Origin: Spinacia oleracea | Lineage: Eukaryota > Streptophyta > Magnoliopsida > Caryophyllales > Amaranthaceae | DNA length: 64,000 nucleotides | Direction: 5' to 3' | NCBI RefSeq assembly: GCF_020520425.1 | Contig: NC_079487.1 | Coordinates: 127,990,385-128,054,384 of the forward strand | Shown: piece after piece, positions 378-46,278 of the stretch | How the letters are laid out: every line of letters begins with the position of its first letter | Position numbering within the stretch: position 1 is the stretch's first letter | Position numbers and translations under genes: made by a program | The notes under the pieces: generated by a model | The model's database searches: none | Told to the model about the DNA's origin: nothing | Seen by the model: the letters and a program-made list of their open reading frames with translations, nothing else

Positions 378-704
378 GTTAAAGCAATGGAGTTGATAGA
401 CCAGCTTGAGGTGAATAGACGAGGGCCATATAGTGGTGGATTTGGTGGAATCTCATTCACTGGAGACATGGACATAGCTCTTGCTTTGAGAACTATGGTA
501 TTTTCAACTGCAACGCGATATGATACAATGTATTCGTACAAGGATGTTGATAAAAGAAGAGAATGGGTGGCCCACCTTCAGGCTGGGGCAGGCATTGTTG
601 CTGACAGTGTCCCTGCAGATGAACAGCGCGAGTGTGAAAATAAGGCTGCTGGCCTTGCTCGTGCAATTGATCTCGCTGAATCGTCTTTCTTGGAGAGGGA
701 ATAG
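378..704 (+). CDS. ASA: Anthranilate synthase alpha subunit, last exon (copy 1, partial)
   Basis: This is the last exon (109 codons with stop) of the plastid anthranilate synthase alpha subunit, which turns chorismate into anthranilate with ammonia from the beta subunit, the first step of tryptophan synthesis. It opens in frame after the acceptor with VKAMELIDQLE and carries the family end motifs: RRGPYSGGFGG, the ALALRT arginine, QAGAGIVADS, and the two acidic residues of ADEQRECE that line the Mg-chorismate site. The end, ARAIDLAESSFLE, is typical of plant enzymes. All conserved catalytic residues of this part are present, so this copy looks functional. The rest of the gene lies upstream of the window. 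A second, strongly altered copy lies at 23735-27581 on the same strand. Confidence 0.93.
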   Translation, partial: VKAMELIDQLEVNRRGPYSGGFGGISFTGDMDIALALRTMVFSTATRYDTMYSYKDVDKRREWVAHLQAGAGIVADSVPADEQRECENKAAGLARAIDLAESSFLERE

Positions 705-19442: not shown

Positions 19443-22400
19443 ATGTCACTTCAAGAAAATTTAGCAAGGTTTCGGAAACAGCAAGAGAAATGTCAGTCAA
19501 CGCTTTCGAGCATTGCTTCTGAAAAAAAAGCTTCAACCAAGACCTCCACTCCACCAAAGAATACCTCTAATGTACTTAAATCAACTCCGACAAGTACATC
19601 GTCATCTATGAATCCAAAGCCTCCTCCTGTCAAATTCTCAAATGATACAGAGAGACTTCAGATCATTAACAGCATAAGGAAGGCACCTGCTGGAGCTCAA
19701 ATAAAGCGTGTTATTGATCTGCTATTAGAGGTTGGTTGCTTTAGTGTGATTGCCTGCTTGGTTAACTTTTTGCAATTTTCACTTTGGGTGTTTCTGTAAT
19801 GTATAATATTGTAGGATTTGTAGCTCTAGAGGAAATTAAGTATTGGTTACGTCTTGCTTGATTGATGGATTTAAAGTAACTAGATCAATGGTGGATAGGC
19901 TCATAACAAAATATGTTGTGTTGTATTTTTAGTTGTACCTGTAAAGTTGAACTAAGTTATGGTGAATTGCCAAGAGAAATATGTTATTAATAAGAAATGA
20001 TAGTATTTTGCAGACCTGGTATGCTGTCATAAAAAACAGCAACATTAGTGGTCATGAAACTATGGTGATACTTTGTAATCAGTAGAGCTCACATTGTCAT
20101 ACTGTTACATGTTGGTTGGATATTATGTGTAATGTCTTTCGTTTGTTGCAGAGGAGGGCACCGTTAACTCCTGAGCAAATCAATGAAGTTTGCCACGTCG
20201 ATGTGTATGCAAACAAGACTGTTTTTGAAAGTTTGAAGAACAACCCAAAAGTGAGCTATGACGGGGATTGTTTCTCTTACAAGGTAGGCTGATTGATTTT
20301 ATTTATTAGCTCCCCAGGTTAAACCGATACCATTTAGTCTTTCAACAATTTGATTTTCTTGTTCTTTACAGTCAAAGCATGAAGTTAAGAACAAGGACCA
20401 ACTGCTTGTCTTAGTACGGAGATATCCAGAAGGCATGCCGATCATCGACTTGAAGGATTCTTATATAAATGTGATGGAGGACTTGCAGGTAATTCAATTT
20501 GCTTCTTAGTCCTTCCTCCCGTTCTAATCTTAAGTATCATTAGAGTAGTAATTTACAGGGTACAAAGCGAGCTGTTACATTGACTATACCATGCTAGTGG
20601 AAGTTTGTTTCCCACTAGTTATTAGTCATACATATTAAAAACCCACTACACAATGTAGCTGCATTTTTATCAATGCTTCTGGAAATCCAGACTTTAGAAG
20701 TTGAGATCATTCTCAAGCTGATGATGGAAAAGGCACATTGAATTGTTACAGATCACTTCTTCTCCCTAGATATAGTATGAGGGAATCTGTCTGTAATCAA
20801 CATATAGAGTGAATGTTTATATTCTCCATGTCACCATGTGATTCAAATTATCTATATGGCGAAGAGTGGAGTTGCTTCTATGATTACCCCCCATAAGTTG
20901 GTTCATAGGAGATAAACTATAAACCTTCTATTCACGTTGGATTAAGGATGGTAATCGGGGTGGTGGTTACAACTCGGGAACGAGGGAGGTTTTGGACAAA
21001 GGAGTTCAAATATGAGAAAAGGTAGCTTTTGCCTTTACCCTTTAAGCCTGCTGGGACAAAAACTTTTCTTAGAGGCAGTGGGCAATATTGTAGTGGCTTT
21101 TGCCTCTACCCTTTAGCCTAAGCTGCAGGACCCCTGTTTCCTTTGATCAGTTCATGCCTTTTGAAATACTGAATTAATGATTGGCAGAAAGTTGTGTTAG
21201 GACCAATTTGCCATTGTGAATAACTTGAGGTAGTGTTTGGAAACCATGATTTCATTTCAAATTATGGATTTCAATTCCAGAAATTAAAATTCAACCATTC
21301 AATTTCAATTGTGATGTTTGGCAAATTTTAGGAATTTCAATTATGGAATTTTAATCCTGTGATTCCTTATCTAATCTCTCACCTCCGCCCAACCACACCA
21401 CTACTGCCCAGTGCCCACCATTTCCGCCCGCCGTCCTTTCGGCGTTCACTGTATCTGTCTCCTCCTCCCACCACCTCTGCCGATCACCTCCGCCCACCGC
21501 CTCTGCCCAATACCTCCGCCCACCACCTCCGCCTACCACTTCCACCTAGAATTTCCAAATTCGAGCTACTTTCTTTTAACTTTGGTTAAATTTTTAGATT
21601 AAAGTGACATGATATCCATCAAGTTCAATTTAGTTGCAACAATTATAGATTGAAGGTTAAACCTTTAAAAAGGACCCATAGCCAATGAATCATGAACAAG
21701 GGAAAATCGGAAAGACAATATGAAAGCATGAAACTGAAAAGAGAGAAGAGATTCAAGAAGATTGCAGGAGAGAGATTCAAGATATAATTGAGCTTGAAAT
21801 TGAGATGCAATCGATCAAGATATAAGCATTATGGTCTGTGATTTGGAATGGAGAGAGAGAGAGGGGGAGAGAGGAGGAGACAATGTCGGGTAAGAGAAAA
21901 AATGACGCGTCTTTTGGAATTTGAAATGCCAGACATTGAGATGGAATTTGAAATCCTTATTTCCAGGCCAGTTTGTTATTGTCTAGGATTTGGTCCAACT
22001 ACAAACAAAGGATTTGGGCCAAATCCAGACTTTGAAATGAATTCTATCTATCCAAACAGGCCATGAGGGTATTGACGGACTTTAGAAGTCAAGGAGTTAA
22101 TTTCGCATTTGAATTAACTTAAGGTGCCATATCGCCAATATGCCAGGTTAAGGAGTTTAATTTCATAATTAAACTAACCTAAGGGTGGGATGTGCCACTT
22201 TCCTGTTATTTTTACTGGTCATCTCTCATGTCAACGATCAACCAACATTAGCATTTTGGTACTTTTGCTTTGTACTGTTTTACCTTTTAAGTCTAACAGC
22301 ATCATCCTTAGCTCCGGATTTTATTATCGTTGGAGCTTTTATGGTGGATTACAGTCAATAGTAACTTTTGGCTTATTACTCTCTTTTTGTGCATTAGGGG

Positions 22401-23184
22401 TGGTGTTTTTTCTTTCCTTTCCCTTTTACTCGGAAGGCGAAGTGGGGTGGGGGGGATTTATCGCTTGCTTATTAATTGCTGCTGATGGATCATATTTATC
22501 ATATTTGTTGGATTCAAGGTTTGAATCATATTTGTTAGAATAATTCAGTTGCTTTTACACCCTCTATTTGTGACTTTAGGATGACATGTTTTTTCTTTCC
22601 CTTTTATTTGGAAGGCGAAGTGGGGTGTGGGGGTTTATAGTTTGGGTATGAATTACTGAGGATGGATCATAATTATCATATTTTGTTGGATTTAAATTCA
22701 GTTGCTTTTACACCTTCCCCAGAGGCTGATCTGGATACTGCTGTCAACCTGTCATTGAATTCAAATATTCAGTCACATGCATTATTCTATTGTTGTCAGT
22801 GACCTGTTTAAAACCTTGCTGATTGTATGTTTTTCTCCATAGACTTTGAAGGTTGATCGGAAAGTTTGGTTGCTCTCGAACTTCGATTCCCAAGAGGATA
22901 TAGTTTACCCAAATGATCCCCGGGTTCCCATCAAGGTGGATGATGATCTTAAACAACTCTTCCGGAGCATCGAGTTGCCACGTGATTTTCTTGATGTAGA
23001 GAAAGAACTTCAGAAGAGCGGTGTCAAACCTCTTACGAACACTGCTCAGAGAAGGGCTGCGGCACAGATTCAAGGCGCTTCTTCCAAATCTAAACCTAAG
23101 AAGAAGAAACATGAAATTAGCAAGAGGACTAAGCTCACTAATGCTCATCTCCCGGAGTTGTTTCAAAACCTCTCATCACAGTGA
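19443..23184 (+). CDS. Transcription initiation factor TFIIE subunit beta
   Basis: Four coding exons: 19443-19730, 20152-20283, 20372-20488 and 22843-23184, giving 292 aa with all joints in phase. TFIIE beta is a nuclear general transcription factor that pairs with TFIIE alpha, binds promoter DNA at the RNA polymerase II preinitiation complex and helps load TFIIH. The low-complexity Ser/Thr/Lys-rich N-terminus is followed by the winged-helix core (about residues 75-200: RKAPAGAQIKRVIDLLLE, RRAPLTPEQINEVCHVDVYA), the WLLSNFDSQEDIVYPNDPR block and a basic C-terminal tail with KPKKKK, as in other plant TFIIE beta proteins (about 275-290 aa). The third intron is 2.35 kb and carries a transposon-like insert. 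The gene separates two anthranilate synthase alpha copies. Confidence 0.93.
21233..22064. mobile_element. MITE-like element in TFIIE beta intron 3
   Basis: Left end 'tagtgtttggaaaccatg' with 'atttcatttcaaattatgga' matches the reverse complement of the right end, where 'ggcctgtttggatag' and 'attcatttcaaagtctgga' are seen. Thus about 45 bases of imperfect TIR bound some 830 bases. The interior has a GC-rich 'cacctccgcccac' minisatellite (21380-21545) and a GAGA-rich stretch near 21850. The target duplication was not resolved. Confidence 0.5.
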
Positions 23185-23734
23185 CTTTATCTGTTAGTTG
23201 CTGATACTTTCACCAGTTGGATGATCAAGTTTGTAGCATAGTTACTCCTTTCTTATGGAAGATACTTGCATTTACATGGGATGCTGCACTTAAATGTGGA
23301 TAAAATGTAATTATCGAATTCTGTGTTTTCGAGACTATTTAGAGTATTGACCCAGTTTCCATACTTAATTCTTTCTTGGGTCTATTGATTGCTTTGTTGT
23401 TGTACTGTAAATGGGTATTCACTCTACTTGGCAAATAATGCCTGCTTTATAATCAGTGATTTATTTTGGTAAATTTATGGCAGTCAAAAGGAAAAATTAC
23501 TTAATTTTCTAAGATAACATTTTGTTTTTATTTTAAACAAGGGTGTTTAATGCCAACAAATAACCATGTGAAATTTAAGGCCTCGAACTACGACTACCCA
23601 ATGAAGCAAGACCATGCTTCAGCTTCAGCATTTAAAGCTCCTGAATCCTGGCAATCAGACTCAATTTTGGGAGGTGAAGTTGTGAAATGCAAGCAAGCTG
23701 ACTTGTAAATCTTCCTGCTAATTATTTTCGAAAA

Positions 23735-26700
23735 ATGGTAGCTGTAGCAGTTGTTACCCTGCCTCTGGTGCCATCAACTCACCGTCAAACTCTGCCGCGG
23801 TCTTTTCAGTCTTGTTGCAAGATGCTGTCATCAACCCCTCTGTTTTATCGGCCCGCGGTTCGCCCTGCACAGTTTGCAGTGTTTTCTGTTCTGTCCTCTC
23901 CATCACAAGGTAACACTCTGTTGTTTAGTGACATGCAAGTTAAATTTTCCAAACTCGTTGAATTTATCACTTGGACTTATACAGTAAGAATTAAGAAAAG
24001 AGGGTACATGTCAAAGTGTCAGCCTCTACCGTTTTATAAAACATATCCATACATTTGGTTTGAATGAAGTGTCAACTGTCCATAACCATGTCGGACTTTA
24101 GTATTGAAGATTTGAAGTGCCATACTGACTCTGTATTCCCCTGTTTATAAGCATGTTACAGTATGTTAATGTCTGAGTGTTTTTTTTTTATATTCAGTGG
24201 ACCAGTCTGCTAAGTTTGTGGAAAAGTCAAAAAGAGGAAACTTAGTCCCATTATCCCAGTGCATATTCTCTGATCAGTTGACACCCGTGCTTGCTTATCG
24301 TTGTTTAGTAAACAAAAATGATCATGAAGCACCCAGCTTCTTGATCGAGTCCGTGGTGCCAGGGTTACACACTTTGACTGTTGTAAGTATCAACGATCAT
24401 CACTTTTTGGTTGCATTCAACTTTTCTTGGAGAAATGCAAGAAATCCTTATTACAGTCTTGATATAAATCACTTGCAGGGTAGGTATAGTATTGTTGGGG
24501 CTAATCCAGCAATGGAAATCATAGCAAAGGATAATTTAGTTACAGTGATTAATAATCGCGAAGGGTGGATTAAGGAGGAGATTTCGGAAGACCCATTGAC
24601 AATCCCTCGGAGAATCACAGAGAAATGGACCCCTCAGTGCATTGATGAGCTTCCTCAAGTGTTTTGTGGTATGATATTTGGACACTCAATATGTTTTTTT
24701 TTTTCCCTACCAAGCTTTTGTTTCAGTACAACATACGAATAACTCCGACTGTACGAGAGTATGGGCCTAGAAGGCAATAAAGCATGTGACCACCCTCTAC
24801 TTTACTGGCCATGGGGCCATTGTGTTTCCAGTTTCATGTCTGGTATTCAAATGTTAAGTGCTTGTTTCGTTGACATAAATATATCTGTAGACTGTAGTAC
24901 AAGTTTCTGGGAATTGAAGGGAAAAATTGTAGAACTGTTTGATAACAAAGACTTTGGAAATAGGGAACTCCCCGTTCGAATTTCTATTTTGTTGACCAAA
25001 TAGTTTTGTTTACACTTTCCAGGAAAAGGAACTTCATTGAAATTGCAGTTTCACCAAACATTTAATTCATTGTTTTTTTTGAACCCCTTGGTTAAAATAT
25101 AGAATGAGAAATGTATGAAAAGGTGGTGATCTGATAACTGATAATGGTTTTTTGGAACACCAGGTGGATGGGTTGGATATTTTTCTTATGATACGGTGCG
25201 CTACACAGAGAAGAGCCTTGCCTTTTCAAGTGCCCCTGCAGATGACAGGAATCTCCCAGATGTACACCTAGGTCTGTATGATGACGTGCTTGTGTTTGAT
25301 CATGTCGAAAAGGTATATAGTTTCCACACTTGCTACCTACTTCTCGAATATGTAATAAGAGTTTGGCCTTTTAGCTTCGTAAAACAAAAGAAATTGAGGT
25401 ATTTATATGAAAACAGGAATTCCCTTTAAAGTGTTATCTTAATGCATATTGCAGCTGTGTATTATCTGTTTAAACTTTAATGCATGAAATTTGATGAATC
25501 TTCTGTATTTCCATTTGTCATAATATTTGCTGATTCTGTGAATTCAGAAAATTCATGTAATTCATTGGGTTCAATTGGATCAATTTGCATCAGTAGAAGA
25601 GGCATTGGACAATGGTATGAAACGCTTGGATTCCTTGTTGTCTAAGGTTCACGATATAACCAAGTGAGCTGCCTCTCCTTCAGTCCTTCCTTTTGTGGAT
25701 TAATCTTAATAATGTTACCTAACTTATCATGTCTTTGCTTTCTTCTTTAATCAGTCCAAGACTATCTTCTGGCTCGTTAGAATTAAATACTCAGAGACTC
25801 CATCAGAAGTTAGAGGCTTTGTGTCTAACAAGTGAAGCATACAAGATGGCCATATTAAAGGCGAAGGAGCATATTTTAGGTGGTGACATACTCCAAGTTT
25901 TTCTAAGTCAACGGTTTATAAGGAGAACTTTCTCGGATCCTTTTGATGTATATAGGGCATTGAGTATTGTGGATCCAAGTCCTTTCATGGCTTATATACA
26001 GGTAAGCTTACTCCTTGGCACCGTTCTCTTCAACTTAACTAAGGCTCCGTTTGGTTTGGTTTAAAACGTTTTCAAGGCAAAATGGTTTTCAACGTTAAAT
26101 ATTTTCCAAGGGAAAACGCAATTCCAAACTAGTTTTCCTTTGGTTCCTTAAAAGAAAATGAGAGAAGATGATGAAGAATGAGGGGAAGAAGGGAGAGGGA
26201 GGTAAGGAGGAAATGTGGTTTCCCTCCCTTTGAAATGGAAAATCTTTTTCCACCTTTGAGGAAGTAATGGAAAATTGTTTTCTATCCCTTGCCAAACCAA
26301 ACAACGTAAAAGGAAAAAATCGTTTTCCATGAAAATATTTTACACCCTACCAAACGGAGCCTAAATCAACAAGAATCGGTTTTATTTTATAAAAATCAGT
26401 TTGCTTTGTAAAAATCAATTAAAACATGTGAGAAATACACAAGAATCGGTTTTAATCAGTACAAAAGTTGTTTCTCTGTGAAATATACATTTCATGTAGC
26501 TCCCGTCTTCATGATCTAGCAGGTTCGAGGTTGCACCCTTGTTGCTTCAAGCCCTCAAATTCTATCCTATGTTGATGAAAAGGTAACACTGTCATTACAG
26601 TGTAAAATGTGTCTTGATTCTGGAATTAACCGTTATTTTTCTCATAATACAGTACATGATATTGACACCCTTCTGCAGGGAAAGTTCACTAACCCAACTC

Positions 26701-27581
26701 TTTATAAGATTGAAAGTAAACATGACAAATTTAAGGAGGATGCATTTTTAGGAAAGCAGCTTATTAATGGCAATAGAAATCATGCAGAGGATAGCAGGCT
26801 AGCTGACTGGGCAAACAGCAATGTCAAACAGGTTCACATTCTGCCTATATTAATTCCTATGACTTGCTCTACTGCATAAGAAATAAGAGGTCTTCCGAGT
26901 TAGTCTCAGTGATTGATAAATTTTCCCAATCAAATAACATTTTCGTAAATAACTGATGATTTTATTACAAAAATGCCATTAAATTGTAGTAAACAGCATG
27001 ATTTGCACCATGATTCAGAGACTAGAGAGTATAAAAGTCTATTCAACATATATTTCTAAAGTTCCATTATATGACAATCTTTTGGTTTCCCCTTGTGTAG
27101 GCTACTGATGTGTATTCGACTTGCTGGGATGCTCTTCGGGGTGCATTGCCTTCAGAAGCTTTTATTGGAGCACCAAAGGTTAATTCCTTATTTGTGTAAT
27201 ATTCTGTACCAAATCTGCATTCATTAGACGTGTAAGTGGCGTAACCAAGTTTGGTAAATACAGATTGAAGCAATGAAACTGATAGATAAGCTCGAATTTA
27301 AAAGGCGAGGCCCATATGGTGGAAGTTTTGGATGCATTTCATTTTCCAAGGACATGGACATCGCTGTTGCTTCAAAAACCATAGTGTTTCCAACAGGGAA
27401 AGCCTATGACACATTGTATTCTTCCAAAAATATGAACGTACGACAAGAATGGGTTGCTCATCTCCAAGCCGGAGTTTTCATCACGGGAGACAGTGATCCT
27501 GGAGACAAGCAGAGGCAATGTGAGCGAGAAGCTGCAGCACTCGCCCGAGCCATTGATCTTGCAGAGTCTTCGTTTCTTTAG
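23735..27581 (+). CDS. Anthranilate synthase alpha-like protein lacking catalytic residues (copy 2)
   Basis: Ten exons join in phase with GT-AG borders: 23735-23909, 24198-24382, 24479-24668, 25164-25312, 25548-25663, 25755-26001, 26523-26582, 26679-26831, 27101-27178, 27264-27581 (556 aa). The N-terminus looks like a plastid leader. The N-terminal half is close to plant anthranilate synthase alpha, including PSFLIESV, GRYSIVGA, GGWVGYFSYDTVRY and FLSQRF. The catalytic half is not: the NRPLAGTSRRG block reads NPTLYKIESKH, AEHIMLVDLGRND reads AEDSRLADWANSN, the ALALRT arginine is lysine, QAGAGIV is QAGVFIT, and the two metal-site glutamates (E-QRE in copy 1) are K and Q. The segment normally encoding KYGSV...HVMHISS has no exon here. 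With no stop or frame break in 556 codons it is more likely a maintained pseudoenzyme than a random relic, but a young pseudogene cannot be excluded. Confidence 0.85.
26043..26361. mobile_element. Tourist-type MITE in intron 6 of copy 2
   Basis: It begins GGCTCCGTTTGGTTTGG and ends with the inverse CCAAACGGAGCC, with TAA on both sides (26040-26042 and 26362-26364). The arms extend through 'gttttaaaacgttttc' / 'gaaaatattttacaccc'. A TAA duplication and this TIR fit PIF/Harbinger-derived Tourist elements. A truncated sister lies at 45951. Confidence 0.82.
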
Positions 27582-45950: not shown

Positions 45951-46278
45951 GGCTCCGTTTGGTTTGGTGTAAACGCTTTCAGTGTAAAATGATTTTCCAA
46001 GGAAAAACACAATTCCAAATTATTTTTACTTTGTTTGGTTCCTTAAAAGAAAATTGGAGAAGATGGTGAAGATTGAGGGGAAGAAGGGGGAGGGAGGTAA
46101 GGAGGAAAGGTGGAAAAGTGGAAAAGTGGAAAAGCGGTTTGCTTTCCTTTCAAATGGAAAAAGTTTTTTCACTTTTGAGGGAGTTACTTATCAAATTATT
46201 TTCCATCCCTTGTCAAAGCAAATAACGTAAAATGATTGAAAGGGAAAAATCATTTTCCATGAAAAGTTTTACACCCTA
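45951..46278. mobile_element. Tourist-type MITE, right end missing
   Basis: It starts GGCTCCGTTTGGTTTGGTGT like the element at 26043 and follows it closely to 'ttttacaccctat' at 46278. There the expected CCAAACGGAGCC end is absent and a LINE fragment begins. Confidence 0.75.

Follow-up and report, generated by a model that had tools for sequence, protein, structure and literature searches.

Is a tandem copy of a biosynthetic gene that has lost most of its active site while keeping its reading frame a gene in decay, or one that has been put to another use? This question is raised by a locus of spinach (Spinacia oleracea) within a window of 64,000 nucleotides, the whole stretch of DNA analysed (C1:127990385-128054384, C1 being contig NC_079487.1 of assembly GCF_020520425.1; the genome searched comprised 894.2 Mb in 242 contigs). 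Window positions 23735-27581 carry a paralogue, here given the working name FIN, of the canonical anthranilate synthase alpha gene (ASA). Anthranilate synthase is the control point of tryptophan (Trp) synthesis in plants and, with it, of indole defence compounds. The only second ASA-type gene found in the spinach genome is this dead-enzyme version, which stands beside the catalytic one. Comparison of the two genes suggests that FIN is probably an enzyme turned regulator and not a dead gene.

As the initial annotation had claimed, the ten exons of FIN, all on the forward strand, join without an internal stop; they form a frame of 1671 nt including the stop codon (556 aa), and 9 of 9 introns are bounded by GT-AG. 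Canonical ASA (C1:127984888-127991088) has 11 exons, one GC-AG intron, and nine GT-AG introns, and encodes 590 aa. Its last exon reaches into the window (378..704, forward strand), with the remainder of the gene upstream, and FIN, read in the same direction, begins 23 kb beyond the ASA stop, making the two genes a tandem pair. The exons of FIN and ASA match one to one, except for ASA exon 9 (81 nt), which has no FIN counterpart. Where exons differ in length (exons 1, 4, 7, 10, and 11, and the missing one), they do so by multiples of three, whereas introns vary freely. The GC donor of ASA belongs to intron 6 (L009:5539-5540), and its FIN equivalent is GT. FIN exon 1 (23735..23909) opens with the ATG, in a context of A at -3 and G at +4, and an AATAAA lies past the stop at about 27644, both of which are weak evidence. 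The first 58 residues contain neither Asp nor Glu, and exon 1 is a putative plastid transit peptide. FIN scores above the cut-off with both domain models, PF04715 (97.7 bits; ASA 106.2) and PF00425 (96.4 bits; ASA 265.8), and below the cut-off of 517.7 bits with the TIGR00564 equivalog model (318.6 bits; ASA 588.9).

To follow the catalytic part, 14 active-site positions were taken from studies on Serratia TrpE (PMC10464499) and MbtI (PMC8008425) and placed by motif. MbtI Lys205 was left out of the mapping, and MbtI Gly270, Thr271, and His334 were equated with Serratia Gly328, Thr329, and His398. The motif anchors for the Serratia and MbtI numbering are those we take to hold for the family, used in place of an alignment to those chains. 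On this motif-anchored mapping, FIN keeps 3 of the 14 positions (E411, Y469, and G521) and ASA keeps 13; the position that ASA has lost as well is that of MbtI E294, occupied by Q409 in ASA and by N408 in FIN. Both GT-loop residues are replaced in FIN, as are E368 (to Q) and T476 (to A) in ASA numbering. In exon 7 (26523..26582), SSPQ replaces SSPE, an E to Q change, and in exon 9 (27101..27178; ASA exon 10), SEAFIGAPK replaces VGTVSGAPK, with GAPK retained. Exon 10 (27264..27581; ASA exon 11), which ends with the stop, holds the replacements R520 to K, G554 to F (F523 in FIN), E564 to K (K533), E567 to Q (Q536), and K571 to E, while the C-terminal ARAIDLAESSFL is kept. The catalytic His is absent along with ASA exon 9. 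Since both histidines of the SHVMH motif lie in that exon, the choice between them is immaterial.

The chorismate-binding block is encoded by exon 8 (26679..26831), which aligns with its ASA equivalent over 51 of 51 codons without a gap at only 31% identity. Its DNA alignment score of 70.5 lies far above that of shuffled sequences (mean 30.4, SD 4.7; 0 of 300 as high). Intron 8 (26832..27100), on the other hand, holds no detectable trace of an ASA exon 9 counterpart (score 22.5; shuffled mean 25.1; 393 of 500 shuffles as high), leaving about 30 residues, including the whole of exon 9, gone from the middle of the FIN catalytic domain. The homology of FIN to ASA and its losses are far beyond chance. 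The initial annotation had listed the chorismate-binding block and the ALALRT arginine as replaced, and comparison with the upstream ASA bears this out. Its further statements hold in part: the second glycine of QAGAGIV is lost and the first (G521) kept, and the two C-terminal metal-site glutamates are replaced while that of the AEH motif (E411) remains. The view that these are substitutions rather than a wrong exon stands for exon 8 and overlooked the missing exon 9. The claim of a preserved fold is half borne out: the last exon is largely conserved, as is the N-terminal part, but exon 8 is remade and some 30 central residues are lost. That loss makes the catalytic fold uncertain, and the domain may be rebuilt or partly unfolded.

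Selection on the remaining protein was assessed from substitution rates. By pairwise codon maximum likelihood over 554 codons, FIN and ASA are separated by a dN of 0.31 and a dS of 3.8 (omega 0.08; pS 0.78), six of these codons being FIN residues opposite ASA exon 9 that are probably misaligned. Synonymous sites are saturated, so the age of the duplication is given as a lower bound only. Those six codons aside, exon 4 has the lowest dN (0.08), and the transit-like exon 1 (0.73) and exon 8 (0.64) have the highest. Pairwise omega is an average over both lineages, and 80 bacterial TrpE loci (the best 80 of 597, from a search with a three-sequence alignment) were therefore used as an outgroup. At 124 sites that are at least 90% conserved in these 80 sequences, ASA keeps the conserved residue at 112 and FIN at 67. 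The losses are concentrated in the C-terminal part (ASA residues 300-590), where FIN keeps 46 of 101 sites and ASA 91, while both keep 21 of 23 in the N-terminal part (residues 60-299; FIN N-terminal versus C-terminal, Fisher p 4.6e-5). In exon 8, FIN keeps 6 of 26 such sites (ASA 23), and for exon 9 it keeps 0 of 11 (ASA 11).

A fixed tree that included the 30 bacteria (among the 80) nearest to ASA gives tip lengths that follow the same division. Over residues 60-290, the ASA and FIN tips measure 0.210 and 0.298, compared with 0.134 and 0.569 in exon 11; in exon 8, the ASA tip is 0.636 and the FIN tip is at the program ceiling of 10. In relative-rate counts (consensus of at least 0.6, gap sites dropped), the N-terminal part shows 7 FIN-only and 2 ASA-only changes (p 0.18), so that equal rates are not rejected, and the C-terminal part 49 and 2 (p 1.2e-12). 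Neutral decay of the FIN frame was simulated with substitutions only (1000 runs per level), and the probability of no stop fell from 0.27 at 0.02 substitutions per site to 0.15 at 0.03, 0.04 at 0.05, and 0.005 at 0.1. Exon 8 alone would be stop-free by chance with a probability of 0.16 at its observed divergence; the argument against decay therefore rests on the whole frame. Stops and broken splice sites, the usual signs of a pseudogene, were not found in 556 codons and nine introns, and the loss of constraint is not uniform. It is well supported by these comparisons that part of the FIN protein, and its frame, have been under purifying selection. The proposal of the initial annotation that FIN is a pseudoenzyme rather than a plain pseudogene gains support from the saturated dS with low dN, the domain-dependent constraint, and the simulation.

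The conserved N-terminal part corresponds to the region that senses Trp in TrpE. For the Mycobacterium tuberculosis enzyme, an allosteric motif, LLESX10S, with further contacts, and a subunit-contact motif, HHEGT, are described (PMC6437058). The 14 Trp-site positions taken from that source carry the expected letter in 14 of 14 cases in the M. tuberculosis chain when checked letter by letter. At 10 of the 14, FIN carries the residue most common in the bacteria (exceptions I108, I125, F349, and C475), the same number as ASA (exceptions F109, A111, I126, and G506), and at 13 it carries a residue seen at least once among the 80, compared with 12 for ASA. The sensing part begins in FIN exon 2 (24198..24382), which holds LIES, an LLES-type motif that includes Ser110, and continues into exon 3 (24479..24668), where GRYS supplies the second serine (Ser124) of LLESX10S. 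Exon 4 (25164..25312; 88% identity to ASA) encodes DHVEK, the equivalent of HHEGT, and is followed by exon 5 (25548..25663) and by exon 6 (25755..26001), in which DPSPFM, part of the Trp site, stands for NPSPYM in ASA. Among the residues listed as binding Trp in Serratia TrpE (PMC10464499), P291 and M293 are kept in both proteins, and V453 and Y455 correspond by motif spacing to ASA F504/FIN F473 and ASA G506/FIN C475. At the LLES serine, 80 of 80 bacterial sequences and FIN (Ser110) have Ser, whereas ASA has Ala111 (exon 2, L009:2160-2344); canonical ASA may be less sensitive to Trp. In two rice studies, OASA2 S126F leads to Trp insensitivity (PMC3901229) and OsASA F124V accompanies 5-methyltryptophan resistance (PMC6750609). 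From the F-x-S spacing, we read S126 and F124 as belonging to the same motif as the LLES serine.

A dead catalytic part, a conserved regulatory part, a tandem position with the sole catalytic gene found, and an ancient origin together make the pattern of a regulatory pseudoenzyme. The reading that we favour, with some reserve, is that FIN is an ancient tandem duplicate of ASA, now a pseudoenzyme under selection that would serve as a Trp-responsive regulatory partner. It is very probable that selection has maintained FIN over the greater part of its past and that FIN has ceased to convert chorismate; the Trp-responsive mechanism is put forward tentatively, its chances being slightly short of even. 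By this mechanism, the FIN protein would be made and imported into plastids, would fold at least through its N-terminal part, and would bind Trp there. It would pair with catalytic ASA, with the glutaminase (beta) subunit, or with both, and, as a non-catalytic Trp-responsive subunit, would change anthranilate synthase activity, feedback sensitivity, or ammonia supply. A division of labour in which ASA, perhaps a poor Trp sensor on account of Ala111, alone catalyses and FIN, through Ser110, senses Trp in trans within a mixed ASA-FIN complex is improbable. If it were true, feedback control of the first step of Trp synthesis would sit in a separate dead-enzyme subunit.

Several observations weigh against the favoured reading. 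The catalytic domain may have become less stable with exon 9 gone. Trp binding may itself be altered, as I108 occurs in 0 of 80 bacteria and C475 in 1 of 80, and FIN departs at two residues near the site that are each invariant in 80 of 80 bacteria (S342 for R344 and D345 for N347). Exons 6-7 have evolved about sevenfold faster in FIN (tip length 0.710) than in ASA (0.103). FIN-only changes also outnumber ASA-only changes in the N-terminal part, if not to a significant degree, and the N- and C-terminal parts contrast only modestly in the relative-rate counts (Fisher p 0.02 to 0.10, depending on the threshold).

The relatives of FIN elsewhere in the genome were also surveyed. A genome-wide PF00425 search (13 candidates scored) identified four places: ASA, FIN, one gene on C6, and one piece on C2. 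Judged from their translations, the C6 match appears to be an aminodeoxychorismate synthase-like gene and the C2 match an isochorismate synthase-like piece. Neither FIN nor ASA as protein query (17 candidates scored with each) turned up a further complete ASA in the genome. A hidden active exon or a misassembly was considered and rejected, given that the ASA exon 8-9 region occurs genome-wide only at the canonical locus and in the C6 aminodeoxychorismate synthase-like gene (17 candidate places scored). C6 also carries a copy of FIN exon 1 within a mosaic at C6:60254096-60255491 (L016:4097-5492), which holds pieces matching window 20703-21230, 22069-22234, and 23494-24016. These comprise parts of the region upstream of FIN and the FIN promoter region with exon 1, at 84% identity over 544 nt, with exon 1 still open. 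A creatinase/prolidase-like fragment (PF16189) adjoins these pieces, and the mosaic resembles the product of a mobile element that captures gene fragments.

Could FIN instead be a pseudogene that was long functional, lost its purpose recently, and is intact by chance? A recent loss of the FIN promoter would be compatible with the data, and in the simulation the frame could absorb roughly 0.03 to 0.05 neutral substitutions per site and still be stop-free (P 0.15 and 0.04). Relative to the C6 copy, FIN exon 1 shows 5 nonsynonymous and 7 synonymous changed codons, borderline below the neutral expectation (p 0.052), and is not significantly more conserved than the flanks (14/172 versus 39/338 sites differ; p 0.28), in a comparison that cannot tell which copy is constrained. 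However, so short a period of drift cannot explain how exon 8 came to differ at 69% of its amino acids and exon 9 to be absent beside an N-terminal part that has evolved near the pace of the active enzyme, and we regard recent death as quite unlikely. It is also unlikely, though it deserves attention, that FIN is functional but detached from anthranilate synthase, its N-terminal pocket holding another ligand or playing a structural role. The changes at I108, S342, D345, and C475, in or beside the pocket, and the fast pace of exons 6-7 (0.71 in FIN versus 0.10 in ASA) would fit such a role. Against it, FIN matches the commonest bacterial residue at as many Trp-site positions as ASA (10 of 14), and the subunit-contact histidine motif DHVEK is kept in what is the most conserved exon.

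The two remaining explanations fare worse. A changed enzyme, with a new reaction on chorismate or a related compound, could draw on E411, Y469, G521, and GAPK, all of which remain, but FIN has lost the GT loop along with the Arg and the Lys, the exon with the catalytic His, and two of three metal-site glutamates present in ASA, making this explanation very unlikely. That a wrong gene model or an assembly error conceals an active enzyme is scarcely credible: the FIN model derives from homology only, yet each of its ten exons has a match in ASA and the splice sites are present, and the losses are substitutions spread over several exons.

A number of further observations concern the surroundings of FIN and the wider family. 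FIN intron 6 contains a repeat of about 300 bp (26043-26349) with a second copy at 45951-46278 (73% identity), which we guess to be a small mobile element. The gene upstream of FIN presumably resembles TFIIE-beta; a Pfam scan of two of its open stretches gave no match, and a short direct repeat (22378-22517 and 22559-22695, 79% identity) lies between two such stretches. A search for the beta-subunit gene returned five matches, all below the cut-off. A scan of bacterial and archaeal genomes with ASA alone as query found no relatives, and a scan of viral contigs with FIN gave no match. Among the bacterial matches listed for plant ASA, the top three are TrpE of Phycisphaerales (Planctomycetes; L017, L018, and L019), with 51-54% identity in the best segment, compared with at most 49% for the other 77 listed. 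This similarity may bear on the origin of plant ASA.

If FIN is functional, as the reading of a selected regulatory pseudoenzyme supposes, it would be a natural separation of sensing from catalysis. It could, by way of speculation, also bear on the sharing of chorismate between Trp and tyrosine in betalain-making plants. Literature listings on anthranilate synthase in Caryophyllales, Chenopodiaceae, or spinach, or as a plant pseudoenzyme, show no report of a dead ASA paralogue among the entries listed, subscription papers lying outside them. FIN resembles plant ASA (spinach ASA and rice OASA1/OASA2) in family, exon order, transit-like first exon, and conserved Trp-sensing part, and differs in keeping 3 of 14 active-site positions and in having one exon fewer (10). 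Rice OsASA1 has 11 exons, the same number as spinach ASA, according to its description (PMC6750609). The feedback-insensitive AS alpha isoforms of tobacco and Ruta (PMC11439500) likewise belong to the ASA family and have altered regulation but, unlike FIN, are active enzymes. PDX1.2 is also a non-catalytic plant paralogue, which is expressed and regulates vitamin B6 synthesis (PMC6829848). It belongs to another protein family and pathway, and its function has been studied, whereas that of FIN is only proposed. A parallel in the same pathway is the TSB-like pseudoenzyme of core eudicots, likewise a dead paralogue of a Trp-pathway enzyme, which acts via the partner subunit of the complex (PMC12727527). 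This precedent indicates that a pseudoenzyme of this kind can work through a partner subunit, and FIN, if functional, would be another Trp-pathway pseudoenzyme after it. TSB-like, however, derives from tryptophan synthase beta, with two key residues changed and its function shown, whereas FIN belongs to the first step of the pathway, has suffered a far larger loss, and has a role proposed from its sequence.

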